DNA of 42,186 nt. Origin: Verrucomicrobiales bacterium (GTDB lineage Bacteria; Verrucomicrobiota; Verrucomicrobiia; Limisphaerales; JAQGOY01). Every line of letters begins with the position of its first letter. Positions within the stretch are counted from its first letter, which is position 1. The position numbers and the translations under genes were made by a program. The notes below the pieces were generated by a model. It searched no databases. It was not told the DNA's origin and saw nothing but the letters and a program-made list of their open reading frames with translations. Below are positions 2,381-29,642 of this stretch, piece after piece. The stretch spans positions 1 to 42,186 of the forward strand of contig JAQGOY010000258.1 in assembly GCA_028293375.1 (NCBI GenBank), read 5' to 3'.

Positions 2381-2386
2381 GGTGCT

Positions 2387-3052: not shown

Positions 3053-4446
3053 TCGGCCTCCTTGTAGAGCACGCATCGCACCTGCCATGTCTGAGTTCTC
3101 CCCGCCCCACCCTGAGCAGGATTGGCGTGTATGGATGGCGGGTCAACCCTGCTAAACAACAAGTGGTCGTTCACGGTTGCCTTTCCTAAGGAGGAGATGA
3201 AATCGTAAAATTGCGAAACCTGATCTTCAGGGAATTTGCCGGAAAGCACGAGGGCTTCATTCTTTGAGAACTGAAAATTCTCCAAACTCACATCAGTGGG
3301 CAGCAAATCCGCCACCGTTTTATAACAATCCAATGCGGCGAATCTCAGATTCACCTTGTCCTGCAATACCCGAACCTGTTCTTTCAATAAAAGTGAGTTG
3401 GTGTACGATTGGCTAATTTGCTGAATTTCCTTCTCCACCTTCGCCACCCGATAATTTAGGAATTGCAAGTAGCCCAGGTAAATGACGGCAAGGACAATGT
3501 AAACGATCAGAACTGCTCCTATGCCTTTCATCCAGAGCCTGTCCACAAATTGCTGGGTATATTTAACCCCAAACTCCGGCGGCAATAACTGCCCGGTGAC
3601 GTTGCGCGAGGTGGCGCGATTGGCGTTCAAACCGGCCAATACTGGTTGAGGAGTGGATGGAAAAAGAGTAACGTCTCCTGTTTCGGATATTGGAACCAGG
3701 CACTCCTGCCATTCCGCACCCACCGCGCCGTCGGCCACCACGTGCAACCGCGGAGGCTCAGTCAGCCACCCTTCCAATTCTCCCGCCCAGGCGATTTGTG
3801 CGATTTGTTCCTGCAGCCTTTGCGCCCGGTTCTCCTGACCACCCACGGAAACCAATGATAAATGCTGAAGAAAACCGTTCTTCCACCAGGCCATGAGGCA
3901 AGGTTCCGTAGAAATTTGTGGAGCGTACAAATACACTCCGTCTTCGCCATGCGGGCTCGAAATCAACAAGTCTATCGCCGGAATATCCAACCGGTCAGGA
4001 TAATAACCTTTTGCTTCCAGCCGTCCCAGATACTCCTCCACGACCGAGCGCGCGACAATTACCACGATCACTGGCTGTTGGTCCTCAAAAGGCGGTAGAA
4101 TCTGGGCGCTCCAGACGATTTGAGCAACCGGAAGAGGACTGATCTTTTCCAACTGAAACTCCAGCATCGATTTGAGCTCCGCGATATCCGATCGCGGAAG
4201 ATGGACGACCTTGATGAAAACCTTGTCAATCGGAAGCCAGGCAATGTTGAGCTTCTTTTGTAAAAGGTTTGTCCATTGCTTTACAATGCTCTTTGCAGGC
4301 AGTGTTTCGGCCGGAGAAAAAGCCCGATCCGACTTAAGTTTGAAACCGCCCTTTTGGTATTCAAACTCCCAAAGCCTCTGGCCTTGCAAGCCAATTTCCA
4401 GGACATTGGCGCTTTCCCAGTTAACGTTCTTTACGTTTTTAGCCAT
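3049..4446 (-). CDS. Fused PilM-PilN (GspL-like) assembly protein
   Basis: Protein of 465 aa combining two normally separate pilus proteins. Residues 1-270 resemble the actin-like cytoplasmic PilM/GspL domain, but the nucleotide-binding motifs are poorly kept. Near residue 287 an LLPPEF motif matches the NLLP motif that begins PilN proteins. It is followed by one transmembrane helix (about 308-330), a coiled coil (335-370) and a periplasmic PilN domain (about 375-460). GspL has this same overall order. The protein would sit in the inner membrane and couple the GspE ATPase to the PilO-like protein. Its start overlaps the end of gspE by 16 bases and its stop overlaps the next ATG, suggesting translational coupling. 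A second, longer PilM-PilN fusion lies at 24527-26323. Confidence 0.82.
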   Translation of the reverse strand: MAKNVKNVNWESANVLEIGLQGQRLWEFEYQKGGFKLKSDRAFSPAETLPAKSIVKQWTNLLQKKLNIAWLPIDKVFIKVVHLPRSDIAELKSMLEFQLEKISPLPVAQIVWSAQILPPFEDQQPVIVVIVARSVVEEYLGRLEAKGYYPDRLDIPAIDLLISSPHGEDGVYLYAPQISTEPCLMAWWKNGFLQHLSLVSVGGQENRAQRLQEQIAQIAWAGELEGWLTEPPRLHVVADGAVGAEWQECLVPISETGDVTLFPSTPQPVLAGLNANRATSRNVTGQLLPPEFGVKYTQQFVDRLWMKGIGAVLIVYIVLAVIYLGYLQFLNYRVAKVEKEIQQISQSYTNSLLLKEQVRVLQDKVNLRFAALDCYKTVADLLPTDVSLENFQFSKNEALVLSGKFPEDQVSQFYDFISSLGKATVNDHLLFSRVDPPSIHANPAQGGAGRTQTWQVRCVLYKEAE

Positions 4447-6182
4447 AGAGAAGCTTTGGGTTCTTCCACCAGCGATTTAAGATGCTCTTCGGTCTGGGTC
4501 ACGCGCAACACTTCCTCAATTGTAGTCAAGCCCAACCTCACTTTATTCCACCCATCTGTCCTCAGGGTTCGCATTCCGTTTTCAATGGCTTTCTGGGCGA
4601 TGGTTGATGCCGGCGCCCGGTTCATCACCAGCGGCCTCAGCACTTCCGTTAACAATAATAATTCGTAAATACCCATACGTCCCTGATATCCCAGCTGACG
4701 GCATTTCTCACAGCCCGCCCCCTTGTAAAATTTTGCCGTCCCAATCTCGTTTTCAGGGAATCCGATTTTCAAAAGAAATTCCGGCGCGACCTTCTGCTCT
4801 TCCTTGCAATGAGGGCAAATGGTGCGAACCAGCCGCTGGGCAAGAACTGCTTCCACTGAGGATGCCACCAGGAATGGTTCGATACCCATGTCAATCAACC
4901 GGGTGAACGCACTGGGGGCGTCGTTCGTATGCAGGGTGCTAAATACAAGGTGTCCCGTCAGGGCAGCCCGGATTGCAATTTCGGCCGTTTCGAGGTCTCG
5001 AATTTCGCCCACCATGATCACATTAGGATCCTGACGCAGGATGTGGCGCAGCCCCATGGCGAAAGTCAAGCCGATGTCCGACCGAACCGCGATTTGGTTA
5101 ATCCCCTTTAACTCGTATTCCACCGGCTCCTCGATGGTGATGATTCGCTTCGAAATGGAGTTGATGGTGCTCAGGAAAGAATAAAGGGACGTGGATTTAC
5201 CGGACCCGGTCGGCCCCGTCACCAGCATGATCCCATGCGGCTTCACGATAATATCTCGAATAGCCGTTTCCTCCACAGGAGAAAACCCTAACTTTTCCAT
5301 GGTAAAAAATATTTTACCACGCGTTAGAAGACGGAGCGAGACGCTCTCTCCATAAACAGTGGGCACGGTGGAAACGCGGATATCGATTTCTTCCCCTTTG
5401 ATCCGTACATTGATGCGGCCATCCTGCGGCAGGCGTTTTTCCGCGATGTTCATCCCGGACATGACCTTGATGCGCGAAATCAGGGCTGCCTGGTAACGCT
5501 TCAATTGTGGAGGCATCGGGGTCTGGTTCAGAATTCCGTCGATACGATAGCGAATGCGCAACTCATCCTCGGCGGGCTCAAAGTGAATATCCGTAGCGCG
5601 GTCCTTGTACGCTTCCCAGATGATTTGATTGACAAACTTGATGACACTCGCTTCCTGGTCGCCTTCAGTGATTTCCTTGTCCACATCAACGACCAATTCC
5701 ATCGGCTCGTCAGTCGCCATTTCATCCAGCGTTTCAGCGCCAACCCCGTAATATTTCTTCAGGGCCTTTTCAATTTCCGCCTTTGGAGCGAGTGCAAACC
5801 GAACTGGACATTTGGCGTCAAATTGAACGGCTCCCAGCATGCCAGGATCAAAAGGGTTGCTGACGGCGATTTCCAGGATTTGGCCATCCATCCTGATGGG
5901 CAGGACGAAGTATTGAAAGGCTACTTTCGTGGAAATTTTCTGTCGAACCTCTGGTGGTACATCGGTCTTTGGAAGATCGAGGTACGGCCAACTCAACGCT
6001 GCCGCGAGTTGCTGCAGGAAGAGTTCCTCCGAAAGACCTTTTTCCCGGGCAATGAAACTTAAAAGTGATTCCTGCGAACCGTTTTCAGCGGTGATTTTCC
6101 ATGCTTTGTTCCACTCCTCAAACTCTAGTGGAGTTGCTAACGCATGGTCGGCTAAAAGCTTTTTTATTGAAACAAATGCCAT
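4431..6182 (-). CDS. gspE: GspE/PilB secretion assembly ATPase
   Basis: Cytoplasmic hexameric ATPase of 583 aa that powers pseudopilus or pilus assembly. The N-terminal GspE domain (about 1-150) would dock on the GspL-like partner. The ATPase core shows the Walker A motif GPTGSGKS at 323-330, an Asp-rich segment EEPVEYELKG around 351-360, the Walker B/VGEIRD motif at 387-396 and a His-box segment STLHTND at about 415-421. A zinc-binding tetracysteine module follows with CPHC at 456-459 and CEKC at 491-494. All key residues are present. It is the first gene of the operon. No gspF/pilC or pseudopilin gene follows, so these partners must be encoded elsewhere. GspE and PilB are hard to separate by sequence alone. 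Confidence 0.95.
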   Translation of the reverse strand: MAFVSIKKLLADHALATPLEFEEWNKAWKITAENGSQESLLSFIAREKGLSEELFLQQLAAALSWPYLDLPKTDVPPEVRQKISTKVAFQYFVLPIRMDGQILEIAVSNPFDPGMLGAVQFDAKCPVRFALAPKAEIEKALKKYYGVGAETLDEMATDEPMELVVDVDKEITEGDQEASVIKFVNQIIWEAYKDRATDIHFEPAEDELRIRYRIDGILNQTPMPPQLKRYQAALISRIKVMSGMNIAEKRLPQDGRINVRIKGEEIDIRVSTVPTVYGESVSLRLLTRGKIFFTMEKLGFSPVEETAIRDIIVKPHGIMLVTGPTGSGKSTSLYSFLSTINSISKRIITIEEPVEYELKGINQIAVRSDIGLTFAMGLRHILRQDPNVIMVGEIRDLETAEIAIRAALTGHLVFSTLHTNDAPSAFTRLIDMGIEPFLVASSVEAVLAQRLVRTICPHCKEEQKVAPEFLLKIGFPENEIGTAKFYKGAGCEKCRQLGYQGRMGIYELLLLTEVLRPLVMNRAPASTIAQKAIENGMRTLRTDGWNKVRLGLTTIEEVLRVTQTEEHLKSLVEEPKASLWLKT

Positions 6183-13427: not shown

Positions 13428-14015
13428 TCATACCAATCGCCGGATAACGGCATCCACTTGATCTTCTGTAACCTTCAGTGTCGCTTCCGTCCAAACCACG
13501 AAATTCGATAGTGAGATTTTAGCCTCCACGGGCATTTGGGCGACCACTCTCTGCCCGATTTCCACTGGCGACCAACCTCGTTTTTCCAGGCGAGTCATTT
13601 GAGAATCCTCACCGCAAGCAACACAAACGATGAAATCAAACTGGTCTCTTACTCCGATTTCGAACAACAAGGGTATGACCACGAAACTGATCTCTGTGCC
13701 ACCATCTTCCCATTCTTTAACTTTATGCATCCAAACCGCTCGTATCTCTGGATGAAGAATCATTTCCAGATCCCTTCGGGCCTCACCATTTGAAAAAACA
13801 ATTCCGGCAAGTGCTTTTCTATTCAACACTCCAGGTTCTGCTATGACCCCTTCTCCAAAACGGAAAATTAGCTTCTGATATATGGCCTTATCGTCTTCGA
13901 CCAACTGGCGCGCTATTGAATCCGTATCGATCACTCTGTGGCCCAACCGCTGCAGGTAATCGGCTACGGTCGATTTACCCATTCCTATCCCGCCAGTTAT
14001 GCCAATCTTCAACAC
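13428..14015 (-). CDS. coaE: Dephospho-CoA kinase
   Basis: Enzyme of 195 aa that phosphorylates dephospho-CoA in the last step of coenzyme A synthesis. The P-loop is GITGGIGMGKST near the N-terminus, followed by DTDSIARQLVE and the LHPEIR segment typical of CoaE. The length is normal. The start is a GTG at 14015 (a TTG follows immediately as the alternative), with GAGAGG directly adjacent rather than at normal spacing. Only 10 bases separate the start from the U-tract of a strong terminator, so there is little room for an independent promoter; see findings. Confidence 0.93.
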   Translation of the reverse strand: MLKIGITGGIGMGKSTVADYLQRLGHRVIDTDSIARQLVEDDKAIYQKLIFRFGEGVIAEPGVLNRKALAGIVFSNGEARRDLEMILHPEIRAVWMHKVKEWEDGGTEISFVVIPLLFEIGVRDQFDFIVCVACGEDSQMTRLEKRGWSPVEIGQRVVAQMPVEAKISLSNFVVWTEATLKVTEDQVDAVIRRLV

Positions 14016-14076: not shown

Positions 14077-17000
14077 CTAAGGAACTTTGGGCGAGGAGCG
14101 CACCCTGTAGAACCTCGAAGTGTTCGTTCCAATCTTGTCGGAATAAGTAAGATTGGTAGCGACGCCAGAGAATATATTGGTCATTCCAGTCCACTGAGCA
14201 TTACTGGAGACATTCTTGAACTCAACGAAGTTGGTGGTATTAGCAATCGAATTCCAACTTAACAGAGCAGTTGGAGTGGGTGTAGGTGAATATTTAACTT
14301 TGAGAGCCACAGAACTTCCATTGAGAGAAGTTGGGAAGTTATTCCCGTTGAGAGCGGGTGCAGGGGGTGCGGAAGCTTGAACAATTCTGCCGCCGGTCAG
14401 AGTTGTGAGATCGCTTACCGAGACTGCCGCCCCGTTCGCTGTCACATTATCAACATAGAGAGTGATATTATCGTCGATAATTAAACCATTCCCCACGTCC
14501 GCCGCATTGCCGAAAAGCGATAATGTCTTGACGTAAATAGCGCTTCCCGGTGCCGCCCCAGAGATACGAGCAGAACTCAGGAGTGCAGTCGCGTCAACTT
14601 GAAGCTCACCGATCGCTAGATTATTGACAAAACCAGAAGCCGAAGGACCCCGATCTTCCCCTGGCCAGGTCAATACAAATTCCTTGAACGACCCTGGTGA
14701 AAGAGTAACTACCGAATTAAGGAGATCCCCCTGTGCGGGTCGAAAAGGTATGGTTAAAGCTGTCGATGCTAATAATTGGCCACCGGAGCTGTCATCGAGG
14801 ACATTGGTAACTTGTAAATAGAGATCACCGCCGCTTTCCAGCAGTCCACCACTCATTAGTTTCAGTTTATCAGCATATACAAATGAGGCCACTCCCGCGA
14901 ACACGTCCCCACCCACATCCACTTCCGGACCCTGCAATTTCAAGAAGCCACTTGCCTGGATTGAGAAATTGTTGGAGATGATGAGCGCTCCAATTTCAAC
15001 ACTATCACCTGAGATAGTTCCATTGTTGACCAGATTAACTAAAGGGGTGACCCGGTCGGACCCAAGCCGTATAAATCCGCCAGATGACAACAACCCGTTG
15101 TTCGTAAAATTCATCAAACCGATAAAATTCGTTACGCTAAGATTAACTGGCGTTGTAATCGAAGACGCTGGATCGATGGTGAGATTTGGCGTAGTGAACT
15201 TAACGTTCTCGTTCGCGAATAAAGTGTCACCAATGTGAATGTCAGCTGCGCGAAGAACGAAATTATCAACCCTGACTTGAAGATTGTTGATGAATGCGGG
15301 ATCTACGATAAGGATATGGAAAAATGTCGTATTTGTGATAACTGCATTCGTTGTAACCAAGTTTGTCACCGTCAAGTTTGTCACGAAGAGATTTGCTCCT
15401 GCAATATTGGTGAGAAATGAATTTGTCGAAAAGAAATTTGTAAACTGAACCCCAAATCCGAGGAAATTGTTGGTGATGAATTCACTTGGAGGCAATGTCG
15501 CCAGCAGAGAATTAGTATCTGCTAAATCTATATTTGTAATGGTGGTAACCAGAACATTGGTAGTTGTAGCATAATCGTTCGTCCACGTAGAGGAAAAGGC
15601 CTTAATTGTTCCACCAAATCTTTCGACAGTTTGGGGATACCAATTGGATACCGTGACGCTTGAAGCAGTAGATATCAAATCAAGATTGATGAAAGGAGCA
15701 TCCAAAGTTGGAAGGACACCATTGATAAGATTCGTCGCTTTTATGTCAATAGATGTCCCGGCTTTAAGTCTGCTTTTGGCCAAGTTTACATTACCCCCAC
15801 TAATCTCGATTCTGCCTGGCAAATTAGTGCTGGCTGTTGGATCTCCAAATGGATCGGTAGGGGCAGGAGCTAAATAAGGACTGACTATACCCTGTGGTAA
15901 CTTGAGAGGATCAGTCTTAAAGGAATACGAAGCATAATTGTTCGTGACGTTTCGACCCAGATATTGAGGACCGTTCAAGAGATTGCGGGAGTATGGCGCG
16001 TTCGCGCTTGCGGAAGTGCCGAGAGGCGCCACTCTTCCAAAGAATCCAACATTCACACCCACCAGGTAATTAGTAGGCACCCTTAAACCCATCTGGCCAG
16101 CATAATAGACATAGTTGGTTCTAGTTGCTAAATCATCTTGTATAATAATGTTTTCGGTAACCGTCTGCAATGAAACATTGTCAAACTGCGTTGATTGGAA
16201 GGTCACACCCGCAACTTGAGGGCCACCAGTGTCAAAGAATTCCACACCAAACTGAACCCCAGCCAACTGATTCGTCCTCACAAAAACAACCTGGGTAAAA
16301 TTGGCGTTGGTAAATGCAAAGGCAGCGTATGCACCACTCCCACCAGCGCTTCCACTTCGCGCTTGTCTTTCATCGGCAAACCAATTGCCCCGAGAGTAAC
16401 TATAATTGATCTGGTCGAACGTAATGCCGCCCACGAAAGTTCCGGGTCCGAAAGTGGAAAGCTGCAATCCCCCAGGAAAACGACTGGGAATAAATTCATT
16501 GATTCCGATGGCTGCACTCAGAGGGTAATATGTTGGGCCAGGGGTAGGAACAAACGGCGCTTGGAAGATCTGGCCTGTGCTATTTGGTAACACTAATACC
16601 CCATTTGTTATATCCAAAGAAGTTAAGTCAGCGAAAATTCCTGAAGCTTCGAATCCGCCACCCTGTAGTTGCAGTTCCTGCCCTCTCAGGTCCACGATAC
16701 CGTTTGCCCCACTCAACATTAAGCCCTGACTGGTAATGTTAGTTGCTCGAACCAGCACTCGTTGAATACCGTCCACAACACCTTTGTTCACAAATGTGTT
16801 CAAAGGTGAATTGATAAGATTACCGTTTACTGGATGAAGATAGTCAAACAAGAAACCTGGGCCTGACGCCAGGGAATTTTTGTTAGTCCAAAATAAAGTA
16901 TTTTGAGTCTCATAGGGCAATAGTCCGCCCAATACCAGATTTGCGTAATTCACTACGGCAACTGCGTCTACTTGCGGCGTTTCAGAAAGCACCGCTGTTT

Positions 17001-17082
17001 TAAATTCGTACAGGGGCAGTGTGGCTGCCCTTGTAGACAGGGTGATGGATAAGAGAATAATGGTCAGGAGGTTACGGCTCAT
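14077..17082 (-). CDS. Large exported Thr/Asn-rich protein, unknown function
   Basis: Protein of 1001 aa with a signal peptide (about 1-19, SITLSTRA). I do not recognise a named family. The body is rich in Thr, Asn, Val and Gly with many short beta-strand-like segments, consistent with a beta-helix or beta-sandwich surface protein. Residues about 545-585 contain a run of five-residue units with Asn at every fifth position (ANLFV, TNLTV, TNLVT, TNAVI, TNTTF), close to the pentapeptide-repeat pattern. The last 80 residues contain a module with LLSWNSIANTTNFVEF and a terminal SRFYRVRS; similar endings are common on exported verrucomicrobial proteins. There is no Cys-rich, sortase or exosortase tail. 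It is the last gene of a three-gene run behind the 899-aa secretin; the spacer to the previous gene is 11 bases. Confidence 0.75.
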   Translation of the reverse strand: MSRNLLTIILLSITLSTRAATLPLYEFKTAVLSETPQVDAVAVVNYANLVLGGLLPYETQNTLFWTNKNSLASGPGFLFDYLHPVNGNLINSPLNTFVNKGVVDGIQRVLVRATNITSQGLMLSGANGIVDLRGQELQLQGGGFEASGIFADLTSLDITNGVLVLPNSTGQIFQAPFVPTPGPTYYPLSAAIGINEFIPSRFPGGLQLSTFGPGTFVGGITFDQINYSYSRGNWFADERQARSGSAGGSGAYAAFAFTNANFTQVVFVRTNQLAGVQFGVEFFDTGGPQVAGVTFQSTQFDNVSLQTVTENIIIQDDLATRTNYVYYAGQMGLRVPTNYLVGVNVGFFGRVAPLGTSASANAPYSRNLLNGPQYLGRNVTNNYASYSFKTDPLKLPQGIVSPYLAPAPTDPFGDPTASTNLPGRIEISGGNVNLAKSRLKAGTSIDIKATNLINGVLPTLDAPFINLDLISTASSVTVSNWYPQTVERFGGTIKAFSSTWTNDYATTTNVLVTTITNIDLADTNSLLATLPPSEFITNNFLGFGVQFTNFFSTNSFLTNIAGANLFVTNLTVTNLVTTNAVITNTTFFHILIVDPAFINNLQVRVDNFVLRAADIHIGDTLFANENVKFTTPNLTIDPASSITTPVNLSVTNFIGLMNFTNNGLLSSGGFIRLGSDRVTPLVNLVNNGTISGDSVEIGALIISNNFSIQASGFLKLQGPEVDVGGDVFAGVASFVYADKLKLMSGGLLESGGDLYLQVTNVLDDSSGGQLLASTALTIPFRPAQGDLLNSVVTLSPGSFKEFVLTWPGEDRGPSASGFVNNLAIGELQVDATALLSSARISGAAPGSAIYVKTLSLFGNAADVGNGLIIDDNITLYVDNVTANGAAVSVSDLTTLTGGRIVQASAPPAPALNGNNFPTSLNGSSVALKVKYSPTPTPTALLSWNSIANTTNFVEFKNVSSNAQWTGMTNIFSGVATNLTYSDKIGTNTSRFYRVRSSPKVP
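15320..15450 (-). repeat. Pentapeptide-like Asn repeat within the 1001-aa protein
   Basis: The encoded segment can be cut into consecutive five-residue units FTNFF, STNSF, LTNIA, (G) ANLFV, TNLTV, TNLVT, TNAVI, TNTTF. At DNA level the phrase GTCAAGTTTGTCAC illustrates the near-direct repetition. The ANLFV unit fits the A(D/N)LXX consensus exactly; the others fit in part. Confidence 0.55.
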
Positions 17083-17093
17083 AGATTCCTCAA

Positions 17094-18659
17094 TTATGGA
17101 GTAAGAACTTGGTTTTCCACATCCAGTATACTTGCCCCTTGTGGGTAGACTGTAGGCTCGGTGTCAGTTCCGTCATAGGAACCCCATCTTACAAATCGAG
17201 TGGCAGATGTGTCATCGAAACCAGTTCCTGGGCGAGCATTGTACTCAATGGGTAAGATGTTATTATAAATGACTACAAAGGGGCCAAAAATCACACCCGG
17301 CCCGGCTCGTGTTCCTACGACCGTATTGTTAGCACCAAAAGAGGTAAAACCTAACGATCGAAAAGAAAGAACGGGTCTTAAATTATTGATAAGCCCCAAA
17401 TCGCCCGCAGCGAAAATAACGTCCGGCGTGGTGATCGCTCTACTAACAATTTGTGAGACAAAAGCGCCATTGGTGACAAACCTATCGCTGAATGTATTGG
17501 TTATGTTCTTGAAGCTAACTCCCAATAAGGAATCAAATCTACCCTGAACAAAAGTGATTTTGTCAACACCAGCCCTTAAAGCGATATTAACTGGTAGATT
17601 GGTTCCAGGAGTATTAGTGACGCCACCCACCACATTCGTGTTGATAACTCCACCCACCACATTCGTTAGAGTAATATTTGTGAGAATCGTACCAAATGGT
17701 GAGTCATAAGGGTTGGGCAGCGCAGTAGCTATACTGTTGATTCCGAATGACGAGCCATAGGGGCTGGTTGCTCCAACACCAACAGTTACGCCACCGCCAA
17801 CATTTCCACCGCCAACTGTTCCCGGAACGGCGGCCGGTCCTGAAACCAGTCTAATGCTAGGATTAACCCCTTCATTGTTGAAGTTTTTCGGACTGTATAT
17901 GTATTTGAGTCCCCCAACATCATCACGGGTAAGCCCGGTCAGATAGGTTCCAACGTTTGCAAATAGTGTATAAGACGCAACTGAGTGGAAACCAACAAAG
18001 TCGGGGTCGACTTTTTGGTACTCGTCGGCGTCGTAGAAGGTTGGTACAGTATATTCATGAACGACGTAGCCGTAATGGGCTCCGTTGACAGCATTAGTCT
18101 GAAGCAAGGTAACTGGATCGTAATTCCTTGAAATAACGAAATAGTTCGTAACTTGGGGGGCAGGACCGGTCAAGGTCCTGTTATAAAGCAGCCAAGTGAA
18201 ACGTTCTGGATTGGCAAGACCTAAACCTTCCATCATATAACCCAGCGAAAAGGATTTAACATCCAATAAGGATGCTGTGGTAGCACGGAAATTTTGTCGC
18301 GTAGTGTCCAGCGGAAATTCCGTTAGTGCTGCGCTCATTTTTGAAGTAGGCGGAAGGTTGTTCAATATTCCGAACGCTTTCCCGACTTCTGTCATTCCCT
18401 TAGAACCGAAATAATCGACGAATGTCTCGTCGAACCCATAAACAACGACAGGCACATTCCACCGATATTCATCACCTAGTGCCATGGGCCCACCCAAATC
18501 ACCTAAATAAGCGGTGTTATAGCCTAGAATGGGTATTTGATAACTTGCAAACTGTCCAAGAAGTGCAAACCCTTTTGCGCTTTGTGTAAGGCTAAAAGTC
18601 ATCAGCGCCAACAGCACCGAAATAAAGGTAAATTTAAAGCGATTGTACATACAAATCAT
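17094..18659 (-). CDS. Exported protein of unknown function
   Basis: Protein of 521 aa with a signal peptide (about 1-31, ending SAKGFA). The ATG overlaps the upstream stop as ATGA; an in-frame ATG three codons in is possible. The N-terminal 230 residues contain YRWNVPVVVYGFDETFVDYFG and a segment TGLTRDDVGGLKYIYSP that recalls the end of matrixin-type metalloprotease domains (a D-D-x-x-G-L-x-x-I-Y pattern). However, the zinc-binding HExxH motif is absent, so a protease cannot be claimed. Residues about 270-320 are Gly/Val-rich, and a nine-residue tandem repeat (NVVGGVINT, NVVGGVTNT) follows. The C-terminal part is beta-rich. The middle gene of three exported-protein genes. Confidence 0.75.
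   Translation of the reverse strand: MICMYNRFKFTFISVLLALMTFSLTQSAKGFALLGQFASYQIPILGYNTAYLGDLGGPMALGDEYRWNVPVVVYGFDETFVDYFGSKGMTEVGKAFGILNNLPPTSKMSAALTEFPLDTTRQNFRATTASLLDVKSFSLGYMMEGLGLANPERFTWLLYNRTLTGPAPQVTNYFVISRNYDPVTLLQTNAVNGAHYGYVVHEYTVPTFYDADEYQKVDPDFVGFHSVASYTLFANVGTYLTGLTRDDVGGLKYIYSPKNFNNEGVNPSIRLVSGPAAVPGTVGGGNVGGGVTVGVGATSPYGSSFGINSIATALPNPYDSPFGTILTNITLTNVVGGVINTNVVGGVTNTPGTNLPVNIALRAGVDKITFVQGRFDSLLGVSFKNITNTFSDRFVTNGAFVSQIVSRAITTPDVIFAAGDLGLINNLRPVLSFRSLGFTSFGANNTVVGTRAGPGVIFGPFVVIYNNILPIEYNARPGTGFDDTSATRFVRWGSYDGTDTEPTVYPQGASILDVENQVLTP
17623..17666 (-). repeat. 27-bp tandem unit encoding NVVGGVxNT twice
   Basis: CCACCCACCACATTCGT occurs at 17623-17639 and again at 17650-17666 on the plus strand, a period of 27 bases. 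It encodes two nine-residue units in the 521-aa exported protein. Confidence 0.8.
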
Positions 18660-19852
18660 TGCAAAAGTTTAGAGGCCATGTCGAAACCACTTCCCACTTT
18701 TGGGGTAGACCACACAGCTACAGGAATTCCAGAATTATTTATGAACAAACTCGGGTGAATTTGTCGCCCCTTTGTGAGGTCATTCACCTGAAACTCTTCA
18801 CCCTGAGACTGAAGCGTAGTCGAAAGTTGGACTCCATAAATTCCTTCCTCCGAACCATCCCGGCCAATATTCGTCCACAAGGCGATAAATCCGTCTTTAT
18901 TCGCCTTAATGTGACTGGAAAACCCACCGCCATTTTCGGGAATATTTAATGGCAGCACATCGGTAAGCGCAACTCCGGTATTACTAAATTTTCTAGTATA
19001 TGTATTCCACTTTCCATCATTGCTATAATTTCTTTCGGACCAAACAGCAACAAAACCACCGTCTGGAGAGGATGCCAATGTTGGACTGCTGCAAACATTA
19101 TCCGAAGTATTTAATCTAAACTCACTGGTGACTACGGCCCTCGCAGGCGAGTAGATTTTGGCGTAGGCATCAACGCTGTTGCTCGTCCGGACTGCCTGCG
19201 CTGACCAACCCACTACGTAGTTGTTGTTTTTAAGGGATGTAGACTCACCTCCCAGACAAACATATTTGGCATAGGCGTTAATCTTTATTTCGGCTCCCCA
19301 TTTAACCCCGGCATTATTATAAAACTGACCGTAGACCGCCGGTTGCGTGCCGTTGATTCGGTAACTAGTCCAGGTGATCAACATGCTGTTAGTGTTTGCT
19401 GAAACATGCGGGTCAGTCTGGAATCCATAGAAGTAAGTGTTTGCGAGCAAATCACCTGTTATTGGTTTAGCTCCAATTATTCTCAGGTATACTTGTTGGG
19501 CTCCCTGCTTACCACCCTGCCAAACTATGGCCGAATTACCGTTGGACAATAAGGCAATATCTGGATTCTCCTGGTCAGCGACCTTTTGAATATTAGCAAT
19601 ACCTATTCCTGGAATAACGGAGCCATCAGGATTCAAACGACAAAAGCCGATCCCCATCCCGTTTTTGTCAATTGAATTGTCCTGCCAAACCAGATATCCT
19701 CCCTTGGGTCCCAGCGCAACTTTTGGCTTGGTTTGATCGCCCTTAAGCTGACCAACAAGAAGCTTTTCAGTTTGAGCTGAAGCCGCTGAAGTAAAAAGGG
19801 CACAGGCGCAAGTACACAAGCCAAGGGAGAGGAAACGACTGGATTGAGACAT
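18656..19852 (-). CDS. Exported beta-propeller-like protein
   Basis: Protein of 398 aa with a signal peptide (about 1-26, ending AASA). The mature part shows repeating blades of about 50-60 residues, each with an aromatic strand of the type GGYLVWQD, NSAIVWQGG, NSMLITWTSY, NNYVVGWSAQ, GGFVAVWSER, DGFIALWTN and IPVAVWST. Seven such strands can be counted, which fits a seven-bladed propeller, but this is a visual count only. No catalytic motif is seen; a binding or surface role is likely. It is the first gene of the three-gene exported run that ends at the terminator near 14035. It lies 95 bases after the 899-aa secretin stop on the same strand. Confidence 0.72.
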   Translation of the reverse strand: MSQSSRFLSLGLCTCACALFTSAASAQTEKLLVGQLKGDQTKPKVALGPKGGYLVWQDNSIDKNGMGIGFCRLNPDGSVIPGIGIANIQKVADQENPDIALLSNGNSAIVWQGGKQGAQQVYLRIIGAKPITGDLLANTYFYGFQTDPHVSANTNSMLITWTSYRINGTQPAVYGQFYNNAGVKWGAEIKINAYAKYVCLGGESTSLKNNNYVVGWSAQAVRTSNSVDAYAKIYSPARAVVTSEFRLNTSDNVCSSPTLASSPDGGFVAVWSERNYSNDGKWNTYTRKFSNTGVALTDVLPLNIPENGGGFSSHIKANKDGFIALWTNIGRDGSEEGIYGVQLSTTLQSQGEEFQVNDLTKGRQIHPSLFINNSGIPVAVWSTPKVGSGFDMASKLLQ

Positions 19853-19883
19853 ATAATCTTATTATCAATTACGCAGGATTTTG

Positions 19884-19916
19884 TCCATCAGTGATATTCT
19901 TATTCGTGCTGATGGA
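19884..19916. other. Inverted repeat between the secretin and exported-protein genes
   Basis: TCCATCAG (19884-19891) and CTGATGGA (19909-19916) form an 8-bp perfect inverted repeat with a 17-base loop. On the minus strand no U-run follows, so it is not a standard terminator for the secretin mRNA; on the plus strand it is followed by TTTTGTT but no plus-strand gene precedes it. It could be an attenuator, an mRNA stability element or an operator. Confidence 0.4.
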
Positions 19917-19947
19917 TTTTGTTCTCCATTTAATTATCCCGATCAAA

Positions 19948-22647
19948 TTATGGATTGACGAAGCCGGATTGCGCTCCAATTCCAGACTTCGCGAACGGAA
20001 ACTCTTCGTCGATATGCATGCGGTTTCCAGAAGGATCAATAATCGTCGGTGTTACAAAGATCATTAAATTCTTCTTGATCGAATTTTGACTCTCACTGCG
20101 GAAGAATCTTCCCAGGAACGGCAGATCGCCAAGCATAGGAATTTTGTCTTTCAGTTTTTGAGTGTCTTCGGAAAGCAATCCACCCAGAACAACAGTCTGA
20201 CCATCCCAAACGATACAGCTCGTGGTGACCTGGCGAATTCGGAAGTGAGGGAGTGGCAGCACAGCGGTAAGTGAGGTGCCGAGCGTGTTGCCGGCCACTG
20301 ATTGTGCCTGCGGGACGAATTTGCCGGGATCATCATAACCAATGAATTCCGTTACGGCTGGAATCAAGGTCATGTGGACCGAATAACCATCCGAACCAAT
20401 AGAGGGAATTACGTCCAGGGTTGGCCCAACTGGGAATGTGGTTGTGGTGAATTGAATGGTCGCCGCAACGCCTGTTCCGGCAGTGCCACCTGCTGCCGCA
20501 GTTCCGGCCGTTCCGCCCGACGCGGTGTTTCCGGCTGCGACTCCGCTGACGATTGTCAGCTGGTCAAGCACGGTTATTTGGGCCTGCACACCACTTACAG
20601 TAGTTACGCGAGGAGCGTTGAGGACGTCGATTCCAGAGCGTTGTTCCATGGCTCTAATCGCCAACCTGAATTGAGGATCAGTTAAAATTCCCGAAATCGT
20701 GGCGACAGTAGGAATACTATCTCCGCCAATGTTTGGGCGAAGTCCCGAAGTCAAGAGATTGTCCGACACGCTTGGAGGAATTGCTCCCGCACCAGGAATC
20801 ACCCCAGCAGCAGTGACGATCCCAGGGCCTGGAAAGTTACCCGAAGGGTTTGCAATTGAGGGAGTTCCGTTGAATGATGGGGCAGTCCCGCCTTGGGCGC
20901 CAATCGATTTGTTGTTAAGGAGCATGTTTCCAAGAAACCAATCGAACCCGAGTGCTCGTGAATCAGTTTGGCTAAGTTCAGCGAACTTCGCTTCAATCGT
21001 AATCTGGCCGGGAGTGCGGTTCAGGGTATCTATGGCCTGTTGAATGATTTCGATGTCTTCAAGAGTTGCACGGATGAGCAGCAGTCCAGCGCGATGATTG
21101 AAGAAAACTGCTTTTGGTGGGGCAAGGTTGACACCTGCAGCTGTAAAATAGGCATTAACCAAGGCATGGAAATTCGCGGTATTGTTGGTTTTCGTAACTC
21201 CGGTGATTCCGACACCACCGGCGCCGCCTACTCCCGCTTGAGTCTGGGACTGACCGCCACCCTGAGAACTACCGCCAGCTGCCTGAACGGGCGAAATCAA
21301 AACGCGAGGAACTGCGAACGATGGATCGCCCGAGCTGCTACCGCTGCTGGAGCCGCCACCGCCGCCACCCGTCGTGCCACTTTGGATGGAAAAGCTGAGA
21401 CCGACGACACTTTCCAGTCCCTGCAGGAAGGTGTCAGGATCAACTTTAATTTGCTTTGTATAAAGCGTTGGACCGTTATCTTGAGATTTTGGTCGGAACA
21501 TTACTGCATAATCTTCGACGGTAAACGTGATTGGCTGATCTGCTACTTTCACGATGGCATCCAAAACTTGGGCAAGGGAGACATCTTTCAGACGGGACAA
21601 ACGAACCGTAATGGCTTGCAGATCTACTGGGGCCGGGGGTGCCACGGGAGCTCCGGTCGCATCTACAAGAGTGGCACTCGCAGTTGAGTCCACATGGTTA
21701 TTCAACATGAAATTCAGTCCCTTGCCTTCTGGGTCACGGCGGGTTGATTCATCAGACAATTGTTTGAGAACTTCTCCCAGGGGCAGGTTGTCATAATTGA
21801 CTTCGTTCAACCTGATCTTATCCAACTTTTGGTAAATTGAGTTTCTACCTGCGCTTGTGCGAAGGTCGGTACTCCGTGCGTATGGATTTGGCACGGGTAA
21901 CACATCGCGCTGCTCATCCGTCATCCAGGCTTTTTCAACGGCGACGATTTTTTTGCCGGTCACCGTGTCACGCATCTCCGCATTTTCAGCGAACCGACGT
22001 TCATTGATCAGCTTTAAGTAATGGAATGCTGTTTTATTCTCCGGATCAGCGGCTACCACTTCCTTGAATCGGAGTTCGGCGTTATCAAGTTTTCCCGCCT
22101 CGAAAAGCAATTTTCCGTTCTGCAATTTCGTATTGATGTCCACATTTTGGCGAGCAAAGTCCGGCAGCATGCCAAGAACATCCGGGCTTGGAACTGTTCC
22201 TAAACTCGCGGCAAGAATACGGTCATTTTCAGCTTTGAATTTCGCTGCTACAGCATTCGTAGGGTCGATCTTCAATGCCCGGCTTAATTCTACATCGGCA
22301 GCCGCATAATCCGCGCGAAGGGCATCTTCTTTGGCCAGTTGAATTCTAAGATTAACAAGCATATCCACAGCGGATCTCTTGTCACCTTCCACAGTCGGAT
22401 CGCCAATCCCTATTTGCGGAATATTGGAAACGGCTTCCTCGAGCAATTTGACAGCTCTGTCTATATTTTTGGCTCGAATCGCCACCCTAGCCTCTTCCAC
22501 TTTAAGTTGTAGAGTCTGAGCTGCGTTTTGGCGTTTTACGGATTCAATAATTGCTGCTTCTGCCGCCGGATCAGTTTGGGCAAACACGGCGTGCGTGATT
22601 GAGACCACGGCAAGAAGACCGAGGGTGAATTTGGCTGCTTTGATCAT
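19948..22647 (-). CDS. TPR-containing secretin (PilQ-like, Amuc_1098-like)
   Basis: Outer-membrane secretin of 899 aa, larger than usual. Residues 1-23 are a signal peptide. Residues about 45-225 form helical TPR-like repeats (AIRAKNIDRAVKLLEEAV, ALKIDPTNAVAAKF, ELRFKEVVAADPENKTAF). A secretin N-domain (VNYDNLPLGEVLKQLSDES) lies at about 283-385. A Gly/Ser-rich insert follows at about 424-482. The next N-domain is at about 488-542, and the secretin core is at about 545-885 with VLNAPRVTTVSG, GQTVVLGGLLSED and IPMLGDLPFLGRFFRS. It is the last of four genes in the order PilM/N, PilO-like, PilP-like, secretin. TPRs in secretins may replace a pilotin such as PilF; this is inference. By eye it corresponds to Amuc_1098 of Akkermansia. 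Confidence 0.93.
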   Translation of the reverse strand: MIKAAKFTLGLLAVVSITHAVFAQTDPAAEAAIIESVKRQNAAQTLQLKVEEARVAIRAKNIDRAVKLLEEAVSNIPQIGIGDPTVEGDKRSAVDMLVNLRIQLAKEDALRADYAAADVELSRALKIDPTNAVAAKFKAENDRILAASLGTVPSPDVLGMLPDFARQNVDINTKLQNGKLLFEAGKLDNAELRFKEVVAADPENKTAFHYLKLINERRFAENAEMRDTVTGKKIVAVEKAWMTDEQRDVLPVPNPYARSTDLRTSAGRNSIYQKLDKIRLNEVNYDNLPLGEVLKQLSDESTRRDPEGKGLNFMLNNHVDSTASATLVDATGAPVAPPAPVDLQAITVRLSRLKDVSLAQVLDAIVKVADQPITFTVEDYAVMFRPKSQDNGPTLYTKQIKVDPDTFLQGLESVVGLSFSIQSGTTGGGGGGSSSGSSSGDPSFAVPRVLISPVQAAGGSSQGGGQSQTQAGVGGAGGVGITGVTKTNNTANFHALVNAYFTAAGVNLAPPKAVFFNHRAGLLLIRATLEDIEIIQQAIDTLNRTPGQITIEAKFAELSQTDSRALGFDWFLGNMLLNNKSIGAQGGTAPSFNGTPSIANPSGNFPGPGIVTAAGVIPGAGAIPPSVSDNLLTSGLRPNIGGDSIPTVATISGILTDPQFRLAIRAMEQRSGIDVLNAPRVTTVSGVQAQITVLDQLTIVSGVAAGNTASGGTAGTAAAGGTAGTGVAATIQFTTTTFPVGPTLDVIPSIGSDGYSVHMTLIPAVTEFIGYDDPGKFVPQAQSVAGNTLGTSLTAVLPLPHFRIRQVTTSCIVWDGQTVVLGGLLSEDTQKLKDKIPMLGDLPFLGRFFRSESQNSIKKNLMIFVTPTIIDPSGNRMHIDEEFPFAKSGIGAQSGFVNP

Positions 22648-22674: not shown

Positions 22675-23454
22675 TTACTTGGGGGCAGTATATTTCAATG
22701 TCGTTTGCTTCTGATTGGAATTGGCCAAGACTCTAACTTCATTCTCTGTGATGGCAATCACTTTATAGTCATCTTCGTTGAAACTTATAACGTCCCCGAC
22801 ACGCTTTCCTGTGAAGTTCTTGTTCTCCAAATCGTAGCGCAAATCGGCGGAATACCCTTCCACCCTCGAAAAAGGAGTTGTTTTCGTAACCATTGCTTTT
22901 TCTTTTGTGTCTGCCACTTCGATTTGAAATCCAGTTGGATCTTCTGGCGGTCCTTGTATAGACAAAAGTGTGAAGTATTCGTTCTTCGCATTCCCAGGAG
23001 GCAGCGAGACATATTTGGTCTGTTTTTTCAATTCTGCAGGCTTTGTCGACGCTTCCCTGGTAACGCTGAAATAATAACTATTACCAATTTGCTTTTCGAA
23101 TGAGATGATGTAACGCAGGTAGTTAATCTTAACCAACTTGACCTGCAGCTTTTCATCGGAGTCCAGCTTCACAAGCGTGCCATTGGGTTTCTTCTTCCAA
23201 ATAACCGGGTTAAACAGGTTGTGCTCGCCTGAAAGCACAATCTTTTTCGGATTTTTAACCGAATCAAGGGCGGCATCCAAAGAGCTAACCTCGTTTGTCG
23301 CAGCCGCCTTTTTCTTTGCTGGCGCAGTGACAGCGCTCGTGGCTTCCTCCTGGCTCTTCTGCAGTTGCAAAACCAGAGCTACAGAACCTCCCAGAAATGC
23401 CACCAGTACAATGGCCAGGATCACCTTCTCGTAATGTTTTTTTAAAAACTCCAT
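22675..23454 (-). CDS. PilP-like bitopic membrane protein (Amuc_1099-like)
   Basis: Protein of 259 aa. A short cytoplasmic N-terminus (MEFLKKHYEK) precedes one transmembrane helix (about 11-31), a Lys/Ala-rich linker (about 35-60) and a periplasmic beta-rich part. The last 45 residues (GKRVGDVISFNEDDYKVIAI onward) look like the small beta-domain of PilP/GspC that contacts the secretin N0 domain. Its place between the PilO-like gene and the secretin matches pilP in the canonical pilMNOPQ order. It begins 6 bases after the previous stop. The PilP assignment is inference from topology and order; by position it corresponds to Amuc_1099. Confidence 0.68.
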   Translation of the reverse strand: MEFLKKHYEKVILAIVLVAFLGGSVALVLQLQKSQEEATSAVTAPAKKKAAATNEVSSLDAALDSVKNPKKIVLSGEHNLFNPVIWKKKPNGTLVKLDSDEKLQVKLVKINYLRYIISFEKQIGNSYYFSVTREASTKPAELKKQTKYVSLPPGNAKNEYFTLLSIQGPPEDPTGFQIEVADTKEKAMVTKTTPFSRVEGYSADLRYDLENKNFTGKRVGDVISFNEDDYKVIAITENEVRVLANSNQKQTTLKYTAPK

Positions 23455-23460
23455 TTTAAA

Positions 23461-24507
23461 TTATTTTCCAGGGGTAGGTTTGAGCTTAACCAGGTCGATC
23501 AAAAGAGAAATGTGAAGAGGTCTTTCGTACTGCACCGTAATCAAATTGTTCGTGCTTCCAGGAACAACGATCCTGGGCGCCTTTGGAGGCAGCGCGACTG
23601 TTGGGGCATTGGCAGTTCCCGCGCCACGACCATAGACTGACTCAAAAGTCGCGGCTGCCGTTTTTGGCTTGCTTGCATCACCGACGGGTGCCACAGGCCT
23701 GCGAACTGTCGCCGCGGCATTTGTAGCGGCTGCATATTGAGACTCTGCCACGAAGTTTGCCATGACATCATGCGATGGTTCCACGTTAATACTTTTCACT
23801 ATATAGAAATTCGTAGAACGCTGCAGGGCGTCAAGAACTGCCGCCAACTCGGCGCTAAAGCCTCTAAATGCGATTTCGTAGGGTTGATTAACTGAAAAGG
23901 CATTGGTAATGGGCGTAATCCCATAAAGAAATTCGAGGCTGCTGGATGATATATCTTCGCTTCCAGGAATTGGGGTGCGCCTCACCGCTTCTATGCGGTT
24001 GACCTTCGCCTCAATCAGGATATTGACCAGCTGCTTGATATCATCCAATTGAACCAACCAGTTATCCACGGAATTTGTTGAAAAAAGTAAGGGTTTCTTT
24101 TGTGGTTGAAATGAGAATTGATAATCAGGAGGAATGGATATGCCCGCATTTGTCGAGCGGCTTTGGAGATCACTGATTGTAGATAACAGTATCTTTTTGA
24201 ACTCCTGGTCGTCTGTTGCTTTGGGCCTTGGAACAAGGCCCACATTGAGATACCTTTTGGCCTCTTCTATCTTGCCGCTGATCCTTTGATCTTCAGCTTT
24301 TACTGCAGCAACTGGATCATCGACGTTCCCATACTCTGCAAGATCCGCAACCAACTTGTCGTGCTGACTCACTGCAGAAGCGTACGCCACATTGACGGCT
24401 TCCAGATCCGACGCTTTGGAAAAATAATACCAGGCTGCCGCTCCCAAAAGAATGAGGGAGACGGCGCCGCCAATGGCGTAAAAAAGGTTTCTTTTGACCC
24501 AATCCAT
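23461..24507 (-). CDS. PilO-like membrane protein of the Amuc_1100 type
   Basis: Protein of 348 aa. A seven-residue cytoplasmic N-terminus (MDWVKRN) precedes a transmembrane helix (about 8-29), a coiled coil (about 32-85), an alpha/beta domain and a second alpha/beta domain. The stretch PYEIAFRGFSAELAAVLDAL followed by TNFYIVKSINVEPSHD aligns by eye with the C-terminal domain of Amuc_1100 as I remember it (LEIAFQGDRESVLKAM, then YLFTVNSIRI). A low-complexity Ala/Pro segment (about 240-300) precedes a final strand (NLITVQYERPLHISLLIDLV) with the same order as Amuc_1100. The domain layout is that of PilO. It lies 19 bases after the PilM-PilN gene stop. Amuc_1100 is the well-known outer-surface/pilus-associated immunomodulatory protein of Akkermansia. 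Confidence 0.72.
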   Translation of the reverse strand: MDWVKRNLFYAIGGAVSLILLGAAAWYYFSKASDLEAVNVAYASAVSQHDKLVADLAEYGNVDDPVAAVKAEDQRISGKIEEAKRYLNVGLVPRPKATDDQEFKKILLSTISDLQSRSTNAGISIPPDYQFSFQPQKKPLLFSTNSVDNWLVQLDDIKQLVNILIEAKVNRIEAVRRTPIPGSEDISSSSLEFLYGITPITNAFSVNQPYEIAFRGFSAELAAVLDALQRSTNFYIVKSINVEPSHDVMANFVAESQYAAATNAAATVRRPVAPVGDASKPKTAAATFESVYGRGAGTANAPTVALPPKAPRIVVPGSTNNLITVQYERPLHISLLIDLVKLKPTPGK

Positions 24508-24526: not shown

Positions 24527-26323
24527 TTAAAACTTAAACGACTTTTTGAGCTTCACTTCCATGTTGAAAGAGAACGTTTGGGGATCCGGACTCGCAGAGG
24601 TTGTCATCCTGATCGCGTCCTTTTCAAAAAACCCGCTATCTTTGAAGGTATTCAAAACCCTGTAAGTCACTGCAGCATTAAGGTCCTCCGCCACGTTCAC
24701 ACCCCTGAAAATCAGGCGAATCCGGCTGATTTCATTTGGTGGGCCTTTTTCCTGCTGTCTCCTGGCGAGAATGTCTTTCTTGGTCAACCCGTAAGCCTTC
24801 ATCATCGCCTCATCCATCTCAGGCTCGTCCGACCCTTCGTCGCCTGCCATGTATCCGGGCAAAATGGGTTCAAACTTTTCGATCCAGACCCCAACGTCTT
24901 TTCCGCTTTCTTCCTTCTGCTTTTGCTCGATGGCGATCATCAATTTGCGGAATTCCTGGAGCGTGTTGGCCCAGAGAACCCGGTTATCGAAGGAGCGTGA
25001 TAGTGTGTCGGCGAATGATTGTTTCTTATCGAGTTCATTTTTGGCCGAAAGAATGGCATCGCTCTTCTTTTTCAAAGGATCAACTTTTGCATTGATCTGG
25101 TCCAATGCCGTTGCCTTGATGTCGGTCAATTTGCCTTCGTAAAAGGCGAACGCGAGCGCCCCCGCGACCAGCACCGCGGCGGTCGCAACGAAGAATGGTT
25201 TTTTTGCAGCCAACTCCTGTTTCTGAAGCGAGCTTTTCGGCATCAAATTCAGTTCAACTGGGCAATGAGCCAGGTTTCTCAAACCAAGACCAACCACTTC
25301 TCCGAAGGAGTGAGCGATTTTTGATAACTCCTCGAGATTAACTCCTGCATCAAACTGCACGTTTCGGAACGGATTGAAATAATCAACCGGGATATTCAGT
25401 TTTTCATTAAAAAACTGGGCTGTGTAAGGCATGATGGATGCCCCGCCGGACAGGAACAAGCGGAGCGGGGCCGACCCACCCTGTTGGCCGCGGTAAAACT
25501 GAATGGTCTGGTTGACCTGCATGTGGAGCCGGGTCATAACCTGACGGGCAATTTTGGAAATCGCGGCCGCCTGCGGATCTTCCGGCTCCTCGTAGGCGCC
25601 TCCCAGGCTGACGAATCCTTTTTCTATCTTGGCTCTTTCAGCTTCACCAAAGGGCAGCTTCGCTTCTGTGGCAAAATCCTGGGTGATCGAGTTTGCTCCG
25701 ATATTGATGCTGCGAGAGTAGATTTTTCCCTTTTCGAAAAAGAGGAGATTGCTTGTCTTGGCGCCGATGTCCAGCAACATGGTGCAACCTTCCTGGTCAC
25801 CGTAGTTATACCGAAAAGCGTTGCAAAGAGCGGCCGGCGAAACATCCACCAAATCCAGCTTCAGGCCTGCGCCTTCACCGACACGAAATAGCCCCTCGAC
25901 GATCTCTGACTTAATGGCGACCAACAACACTTCCAACTCGCCGGAAGGCATTGTTCCGAGGATTTGATAATCCCAAACCACGTCTTCCAGCGGAAATGGA
26001 ACGTTTTGCTGGGCTTCATACTGAATGATCTGGGTAACCTTGGAGGTGTCGACCTGCGGAAGTTTTACAAATTTGGAAAAAACGTGGAAACCCGGAGCAC
26101 AAACGTTGATGTGCTTGGTGGAAAATGAATTTTCTGAAAGAAGCCCCTGGAGTGCCTTGACCATGGCAGTTTCGCGAGTGGATTCCTGCGCGCCTTCCTG
26201 CCCAAGTGATTTTAAAGCATATTGCTTTAAGCGCAAGCCGCCTGCATCTGTGATCTCAAACTGCGCCACTTTCAGGGAACCCGCCCCGAAATCCGCCGCT
26301 AAAAACGATTTTTGATTCAACAT
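24527..26323 (-). CDS. pilM: PilM-PilN fusion protein (Amuc_1101-like)
   Basis: Protein of 598 aa. Residues 1-350 are a complete actin-like PilM domain with phosphate-1 (AADFGAGSLKVA, 9-20), phosphate-2 (LLDIGAKTSNLLF, 183-195) and adenosine (LSGGASIMPY, 291-300) motifs, so ATP binding is likely retained. At 357-362 ELNLMP matches the NLLP motif that starts PilN. A transmembrane helix follows (about 376-396), then a coiled coil (about 400-440) and a periplasmic PilN domain to the end. The fusion tethers the cytoplasmic ring directly to the periplasmic one. First gene of the four-gene cluster; an AAAGG sequence lies about 8 bases before the ATG. The C-terminal domain is larger than in the 3049-4446 fusion. 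Confidence 0.88.
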   Translation of the reverse strand: MLNQKSFLAADFGAGSLKVAQFEITDAGGLRLKQYALKSLGQEGAQESTRETAMVKALQGLLSENSFSTKHINVCAPGFHVFSKFVKLPQVDTSKVTQIIQYEAQQNVPFPLEDVVWDYQILGTMPSGELEVLLVAIKSEIVEGLFRVGEGAGLKLDLVDVSPAALCNAFRYNYGDQEGCTMLLDIGAKTSNLLFFEKGKIYSRSINIGANSITQDFATEAKLPFGEAERAKIEKGFVSLGGAYEEPEDPQAAAISKIARQVMTRLHMQVNQTIQFYRGQQGGSAPLRLFLSGGASIMPYTAQFFNEKLNIPVDYFNPFRNVQFDAGVNLEELSKIAHSFGEVVGLGLRNLAHCPVELNLMPKSSLQKQELAAKKPFFVATAAVLVAGALAFAFYEGKLTDIKATALDQINAKVDPLKKKSDAILSAKNELDKKQSFADTLSRSFDNRVLWANTLQEFRKLMIAIEQKQKEESGKDVGVWIEKFEPILPGYMAGDEGSDEPEMDEAMMKAYGLTKKDILARRQQEKGPPNEISRIRLIFRGVNVAEDLNAAVTYRVLNTFKDSGFFEKDAIRMTTSASPDPQTFSFNMEVKLKKSFKF

Positions 26324-28886: not shown

Positions 28887-29642
28887 TCATAACGAACCCT
28901 TTAATTCGGGTTTCTTTGCCACCCCAGATTCTGAGCCTGGGAGTGTTGTCTGAAATTTGGGTATCGCCTCGGAAAGAAAATCAAACATCCTTTTTTGAGT
29001 CTGCTCTTCCTCACCTTTGTGACACACCGAAAAACTGGATATGTAAGCCCATCTGTCCAGTTTACCAGTGGTTAACAAATGTTTCGACATCAACCAGATG
29101 CGTTCCCAGTGTCCGCAAGCCAGCGAGTTTTCGGCAACGAACCAATAAAGGTATACCCCGCTTAGGGTGCGGGTCTGGCCATTGATGACGTCATCTTTAT
29201 TGATCGTAATTTTGCTCACAAGCATTTTGCTGGAAGGAGAAGTCTTAAGCTCGAGCGGGATCCCCATTTCCTCCGAAACGATCTTCCATCCATGCCCTGG
29301 AAGGCAAAACTGCGGTTTGTGAATACTGGTCCGGTCCGTCCCCATCAACACCGCATTCAACGCCACGCCAAAACCATCGCCATTTCGGTAAAGGCGCTGC
29401 ATCAGAGAAGTATCCTTGGGCAGCGTGTTATAAACTTCCTCAGTCGTGGGAATAACTTCCGAAAAGTAAGGTCCCACGGTGAGAGGGAGCAACAATTTGA
29501 CGTTTTGTTTCCCGGCAATAGGCTCGAACCTTAGCCCGGGATTGCCTAGTTTTTGCGTTGCCCGTAGATGAACTAAAGCGAAGCATCCGCCTCCCATGAT
29601 CAAAAACGCCACTAAGACGATGACTATCCGCGACCGTTTCAT
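28887..29642 (-). CDS. epsI: Exosortase-associated EpsI-family protein
   Basis: Protein of 251 aa with one N-terminal membrane segment (about 5-25) and an EpsI domain. Family marks are SLMQRLYRNGDG, HKPQFCLPGHGW, YLYWFVAENSLACGHWERIW and TGKLDRWAYIS. The role of EpsI is not well defined; it is encoded next to or fused to exosortases and is thought to help in protein sorting or exopolysaccharide export. Here it is a separate gene, whose ATG overlaps the exosortase stop as ATGA, implying coupled translation and a shared job. Confidence 0.9.
   Translation of the reverse strand: MKRSRIVIVLVAFLIMGGGCFALVHLRATQKLGNPGLRFEPIAGKQNVKLLLPLTVGPYFSEVIPTTEEVYNTLPKDTSLMQRLYRNGDGFGVALNAVLMGTDRTSIHKPQFCLPGHGWKIVSEEMGIPLELKTSPSSKMLVSKITINKDDVINGQTRTLSGVYLYWFVAENSLACGHWERIWLMSKHLLTTGKLDRWAYISSFSVCHKGEEEQTQKRMFDFLSEAIPKFQTTLPGSESGVAKKPELKGSL

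Follow-up and report, generated by a model that had tools for sequence, protein, structure and literature searches.

The PilY1-type propeller is a tip protein of type IV pili. The described system closest to the locus considered here is the Amuc_1098–1101 machine, which has been studied in Akkermansia and has relatives throughout the phylum; matches to the PilM/Amuc_1101 family are present in 277 of 289 genomes of the phylum, part of them being generic PilM matches. It has been reported that the Amuc_1098 secretin is the most abundant outer-membrane protein of Akkermansia (PMC4960237). In the order Limisphaerales, one whole order appears to have inserted a module of three exported proteins directly behind this secretin. 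No description of the trio was found in a literature search, which reached few subscription journals.

The window, that is, the whole stretch of DNA analysed, is the 42,186-base contig C100 of a genome that is 76% complete. Upstream of the trio, the genes for a PilM-like protein, an Amuc_1100-like protein, an Amuc_1099-like protein and the secretin lie on one strand and in this order, which is the gene order of the Amuc_1098–1101 cluster of Akkermansia muciniphila, and these families are the best NCBIfam matches. However, the four scores of the window (499.6, 74.9, 24.4 and 366.8 bits) all fall below the curated equivalog cut-offs (650, 180, 50 and 750 bits, respectively). The features of the locus, in the direction of transcription, are as follows:

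24527–26323, minus strand: PilM/Amuc_1101-like gene, 598 aa (NCBIfam E 1.6e-149)
23461–24507, minus strand: Amuc_1100-like gene, 348 aa (NCBIfam E 7e-21)
22675–23454, minus strand: Amuc_1099-like gene, 259 aa (NCBIfam E 2e-5, together with its position in the cluster)
19948–22647, minus strand: Amuc_1098-like secretin gene, 899 aa, with a TPR N-terminus (NF042912 E 2e-109, 366.8 bits; Secretin E 4e-31)
19853–19947, minus strand: gap of 95 bases between secretin and PROP, where some relatives have an exonuclease gene
18656–19852, minus strand: PROP, 398 aa, exported, predicted seven-bladed beta-propeller; the window copy is a short form
18656–18659, minus strand: stop/start overlap of PROP and P521, ATGA
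17094–18659, minus strand: P521, 521 aa, exported, from an unnamed family of this order only, without HExxH
17083–17093, minus strand: spacer of 11 bases between P521 and P1001
14077–17082, minus strand: P1001, 1001 aa, exported; the model shows a beta-solenoid and, at the C-terminus, an FN3-like domain
14080–14340, minus strand: the C-terminal FN3-like domain (CTD) of P1001
14034–14060, minus strand: intrinsic terminator 3′ of the trio, a 12-pair stem and then TTTTGTTT
13428–14015, minus strand: coaE, apparently the ancestral right-hand neighbour of the cluster, outside the module

The earlier note had described three same-strand reading frames of 398, 521 and 1001 aa immediately behind the secretin, with an ATGA overlap and an 11-base spacer inside the run and a single strong terminator at its end. 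The coordinates were confirmed with all three frames on the minus strand, and the overlap, the spacer and the terminator are in place. "Immediately behind the secretin" is true of the window, but it is not general because a 5′-3′ exonuclease gene lies between the secretin and PROP in 32 of 77 relatives. Eight of the 12 pairs of the terminator stem are G–C, TTTTGTTT follows directly, and the site is the strongest among 17 terminator-like sites, all others having at most 8 pairs; the number of these sites (17) is not above that in shuffles (mean 16.0), and promoter-like sites around the trio are no more frequent than in shuffles. The start of P521 may be its fourth codon, which is the start in most relatives in a 25-member alignment.

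Among 58 genomes of the order Limisphaerales, PROP is found in 49, P521 in 48 and P1001 in 47, some weak P1001 matches covering only its C-terminal domain. Genomes of the order that apparently have no machine are incomplete and were left out as evidence on the absence of the trio. P521 homologues with 33–45% identity, adjoined by PROP and P1001, occur in about 48 families of the order, and P521 is absent from all 288 other genomes of the phylum as searched with a 25-row profile. Gene order was established in 60 regions from the order, and the addition of 80 named loci brought the set to 117 P521 loci once duplicates had been removed. Among the distinct P521 loci, 66 have flanking DNA long enough for a judgement, and in 63 of these secretin, PROP, P521 and P1001 stand in the same order and on the same strand; at the other three, a P521 paralogue stands alone. 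The earlier note had proposed to check whether trio and four-gene cluster co-occur in other genomes; they do, and their linkage is far stronger than a single genome could have revealed. The same note held that a trio found apart from the secretin in relatives would count against it; P521 paralogues and a single P521–propeller pair (L227, in one genome, no secretin nearby) do occur without secretin and P1001. In L087, from a genome that is 95% complete, the secretin, exonuclease and coaE genes are kept and all three trio genes are absent.

Outside the order, in 20 loci from other orders and classes, the genes for PilM, Amuc_1100, Amuc_1099 and the secretin are followed by coaE in most cases, with an exonuclease gene and a gene for a membrane protein of ~680 aa variably present between secretin and coaE. 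The trio is in none of these 20 loci, a point in which the window differs from the Amuc_1098–1101 cluster; in the phylum as a whole, the cluster does not regularly include it. Since the secretin is mostly followed by coaE in loci outside the order and the trio is lacking there, the trio is taken to be an order-specific insertion and the locus itself older. Most simply, the ancestor of the order, or a still earlier lineage, acquired the module in a gene neighbourhood that already existed, at a site with the secretin (or exonuclease) gene on one side and coaE on the other, and the order has inherited it since. Throughout the phylum, the locus has also held on to exonuclease and coaE genes, which are unrelated housekeeping genes without an obvious connection to the machine, and because they too are kept there, conserved adjacency alone is no proof of a functional link. 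In loci from other classes (L216–L220 and L223–L225), the ~680-aa protein encoded between secretin or exonuclease and coaE is a multi-spanning membrane protein. It was considered as a distant propeller and rejected, as it spans the membrane several times and by eye resembles a glycosyltransferase or oligosaccharyltransferase.

A simple heuristic finds in each of PROP, P521 and P1001 a hydrophobic stretch at the N-terminus, accompanied by AxA-like cleavage sites, and no membrane segment further on, in agreement with the signal peptides that had been assigned to all three. The 398-aa protein had been called propeller-like, which fits its seven W[STQ] motifs at spacings of 55, 50, 55, 55, 55 and 55 residues. 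Judged from this repeat spacing, it consists of tandem blade repeats of one length and is, on its sequence pattern, a seven-bladed beta-propeller. It differs from known propellers of this kind in that it matches no Pfam propeller family and in that its relatives add further parts: most homologues are ~650 aa long, with an extra fn3 domain, TSP3 repeat and C-terminal domain, and the short form is limited to the window copy and a few others. The resemblance to the PilY1-like tip adhesin of type IV pili is one of domain type only. A DxDxDG motif (TSP3/EF-hand-like) is found in many propeller homologues of the order and in no Amuc_1099-like reading frame read there, and several Amuc_1099-like proteins outside the order (L207–L226) carry it.

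P521 has no match among the families of Pfam, NCBIfam or the PDB. Its 25-member alignment contains many invariant residues, and an HExxH or HExxHxxGxxH zinc site is absent from it. The AlphaFold2 model of P521 has a mean pLDDT of 78, and its best Foldseek matches are mostly matrixins; they are weak, none exceeding a probability of 0.23, and E is about 1. The stretch LTRDDVGGLRYLY resembles the end of the matrixin domain, both in a weak Foldseek match and by eye. In these two respects P521 is weakly reminiscent of the matrixin (M10) metallopeptidases, but it differs from them in having no HExxH and in an hhalign probability of only 4% against M10 members of the same order. The idea that P521 is a degenerate matrixin was therefore not adopted and remains a lead. 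Matrixin-family (M10) matches are present in the window genome (C186:2548-3021) and in relatives; the M10 proteins read have HExxH, and in most of them a domain of the kind seen at the end of P1001 forms the C-terminus. Stand-alone P521 paralogues at three loci have an additional C-terminal domain. Several very long P521 paralogues (up to ~1300 aa) lie away from the secretin in genomes G007 and G023 (L080, L082 and L227–L230).

The 1001-aa protein had been described as beta-rich, and its AlphaFold2 model agrees, with a beta-solenoid followed by the C-terminal FN3-like domain. In this architecture P1001 is like beta-solenoid surface proteins with a C-terminal FN3-like domain; it differs in that the solenoid has no confident structural match and contains two unusually long strands (residues 485–518 and 570–602, 33–34 residues each). 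Between these strands, within residues 485–602, the model has a low-confidence loop, and the stretch is rich in TN repeats. For the CTD region, Foldseek returned many FN3 structures with probability up to 1.0 over ~75 residues and E about 1, the query being the whole model, and the CTD is accordingly modelled as having an FN3 fold. Pfam and NCBIfam have no entry for the CTD, nor for P521 or the solenoid of P1001, and all three could be described as families.

The CTD is widespread. At E up to 0.1, the window genome has 29 copies; most of the relatives searched have 18–85 each, and G007 has none. In a sample of 49 genomes from the whole phylum, 21 have the CTD. Its carriers include P1001, most propeller homologues and the stand-alone P521 paralogues; the P521 of the cluster and the window's own PROP have none. 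In every reading frame read that has a significant copy (three genomes; L187–L206), the domain ends 0–5 residues before the stop codon, and this extreme C-terminal placement is the behaviour of a sorting or anchoring signal. As a beta-sandwich at the very C-terminus of many large proteins, the CTD is like the T9SS-type C-terminal sorting domains of Bacteroidota, but it matches no such Pfam or NCBIfam family and shows no link to the Amuc-type machine. In the phylum sample, the CTD does not track the machine: in genus f60 g60, no CTD copy accompanies the strong machine matches (down to E 1e-227), and f75 genomes have 10–15 copies with only weak PilM matches. The CTD may be an ordinary accessory domain. 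Homology of the CTD with Amuc_1099 was rejected, the match consisting mainly of a short TSP3/EF-hand-like motif.

The co-evolution of trio and machine was followed by correlating the patristic distances of gene trees (Spearman rho) over 30 loci in which all seven genes are full length. Genes of the trio correlate with one another at a mean rho of 0.79 and those of the machine at 0.73, against 0.44 for pairs of one trio and one machine gene; the pairwise tree distances are not independent of one another. The division into trio and machine is the best of all 35 three-gene splits, the excess of the within-trio mean over the mean between trio and machine has a bootstrap 95% interval of 0.21 to 0.46, and the picture is unchanged on leaving out any one locus. 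By rho, trio and machine are two separately co-evolving blocks; the trio thus behaves as a unit whose tie to the machine is loose. The correlation within the trio may come from a shared fast evolution of exported proteins.

Because the trio is kept behind the machine in nearly all relatives and co-evolves as a unit, it probably encodes a surface complex. The preferred reading, to which a probability of about 0.5 is given, is a module whose three genes encode an extracytoplasmic complex, probably at the outer surface; the module is encoded with the machine but partly independent of it. The module lies downstream of the Amuc_1098–1101 pilus-like machine and is probably co-transcribed with it; PROP, P521 and P1001 would be exported by the general (Sec-type) route and would act together, and they may bind one another. 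A place at the outer surface is suggested by the propeller, the solenoid, the FN3 domain and the calcium-binding TSP3 repeats of relatives, which are typical of surface proteins. The three would be made with the machine, so that they might be assembled or anchored beside the secretin. It is also conceivable, if on the doubtful side, that an order-specific surface complex of propeller, P521 and solenoid docks on the Amuc_1098-type secretin and so gives the pilus-like machine a new function.

The trio could instead supply accessory parts of the machine: specific to the order, they would sit on the secretin as an outer ring, cap or tip, with a role like that of the PilY1-type propeller tip protein or of the secretin-associated proteins of type IV pili. 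The invariant position behind the secretin and the co-inheritance across the whole order fit such a role, and a propeller encoded beside a pilus-like machine recalls PilY1 by analogy; however, co-evolution with the secretin is low (SECR–PROP 0.29, SECR–P1001 0.32 and SECR–P521 0.46) compared with 0.75–0.86 for PilM–SECR and A1099–SECR, the machine occurs without the trio across the phylum and in L087, and the N-termini of the trio show no apparent pilin-type leader. This role is considered unlikely. Co-evolution speaks rather for a surface complex that is separate from the machine but made with it. The existence of two separate co-evolving blocks also fits a bystander operon, an independent three-protein system sharing only transcript and locus with the machine, like the coaE and exonuclease genes kept at the same place. 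Over 16 loci, coaE also tracks the trio (rho 0.59–0.75) about as well as it tracks the machine genes (0.51–0.75). Against the bystander, which is regarded as quite improbable, it can be said that the trio proteins are exported like those of the machine and that the trio stands beside the machine in about 48 families, but both observations are consistent with a bystander too. Secretion of the trio as cargo through the Amuc_1098-like secretin, with the CTD as address, would account for a domain at the extreme C-terminus, its many copies per genome, and its occurrence on P1001, most propeller homologues and the stand-alone P521 paralogues. This routing is not supported because CTD presence does not follow the machine, and the CTD was rejected as an address for the Amuc_1098-type machine on this independent distribution; the cluster P521 and the window's PROP have no CTD, the domain may be an ordinary accessory one, and the cargo reading is considered very improbable. 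The earlier proposal of "cargo, surface ligands or accessory parts" is thus partly supported: a conserved, order-specific exported module stands (63/66 loci), and the roles as cargo, ligand or machine part are unproven.

The first machine in the window (143–6182) is type II secretion-like, with a GspD-type secretin, a GspM-like protein and a GspE/PilB ATPase, and a 465-aa protein encoded amid these genes (3049–4446) has no NCBIfam match. At 28887–30595, an exosortase of the XrtA/EpsH family and an EpsI-like protein are encoded in an exopolysaccharide gene region.
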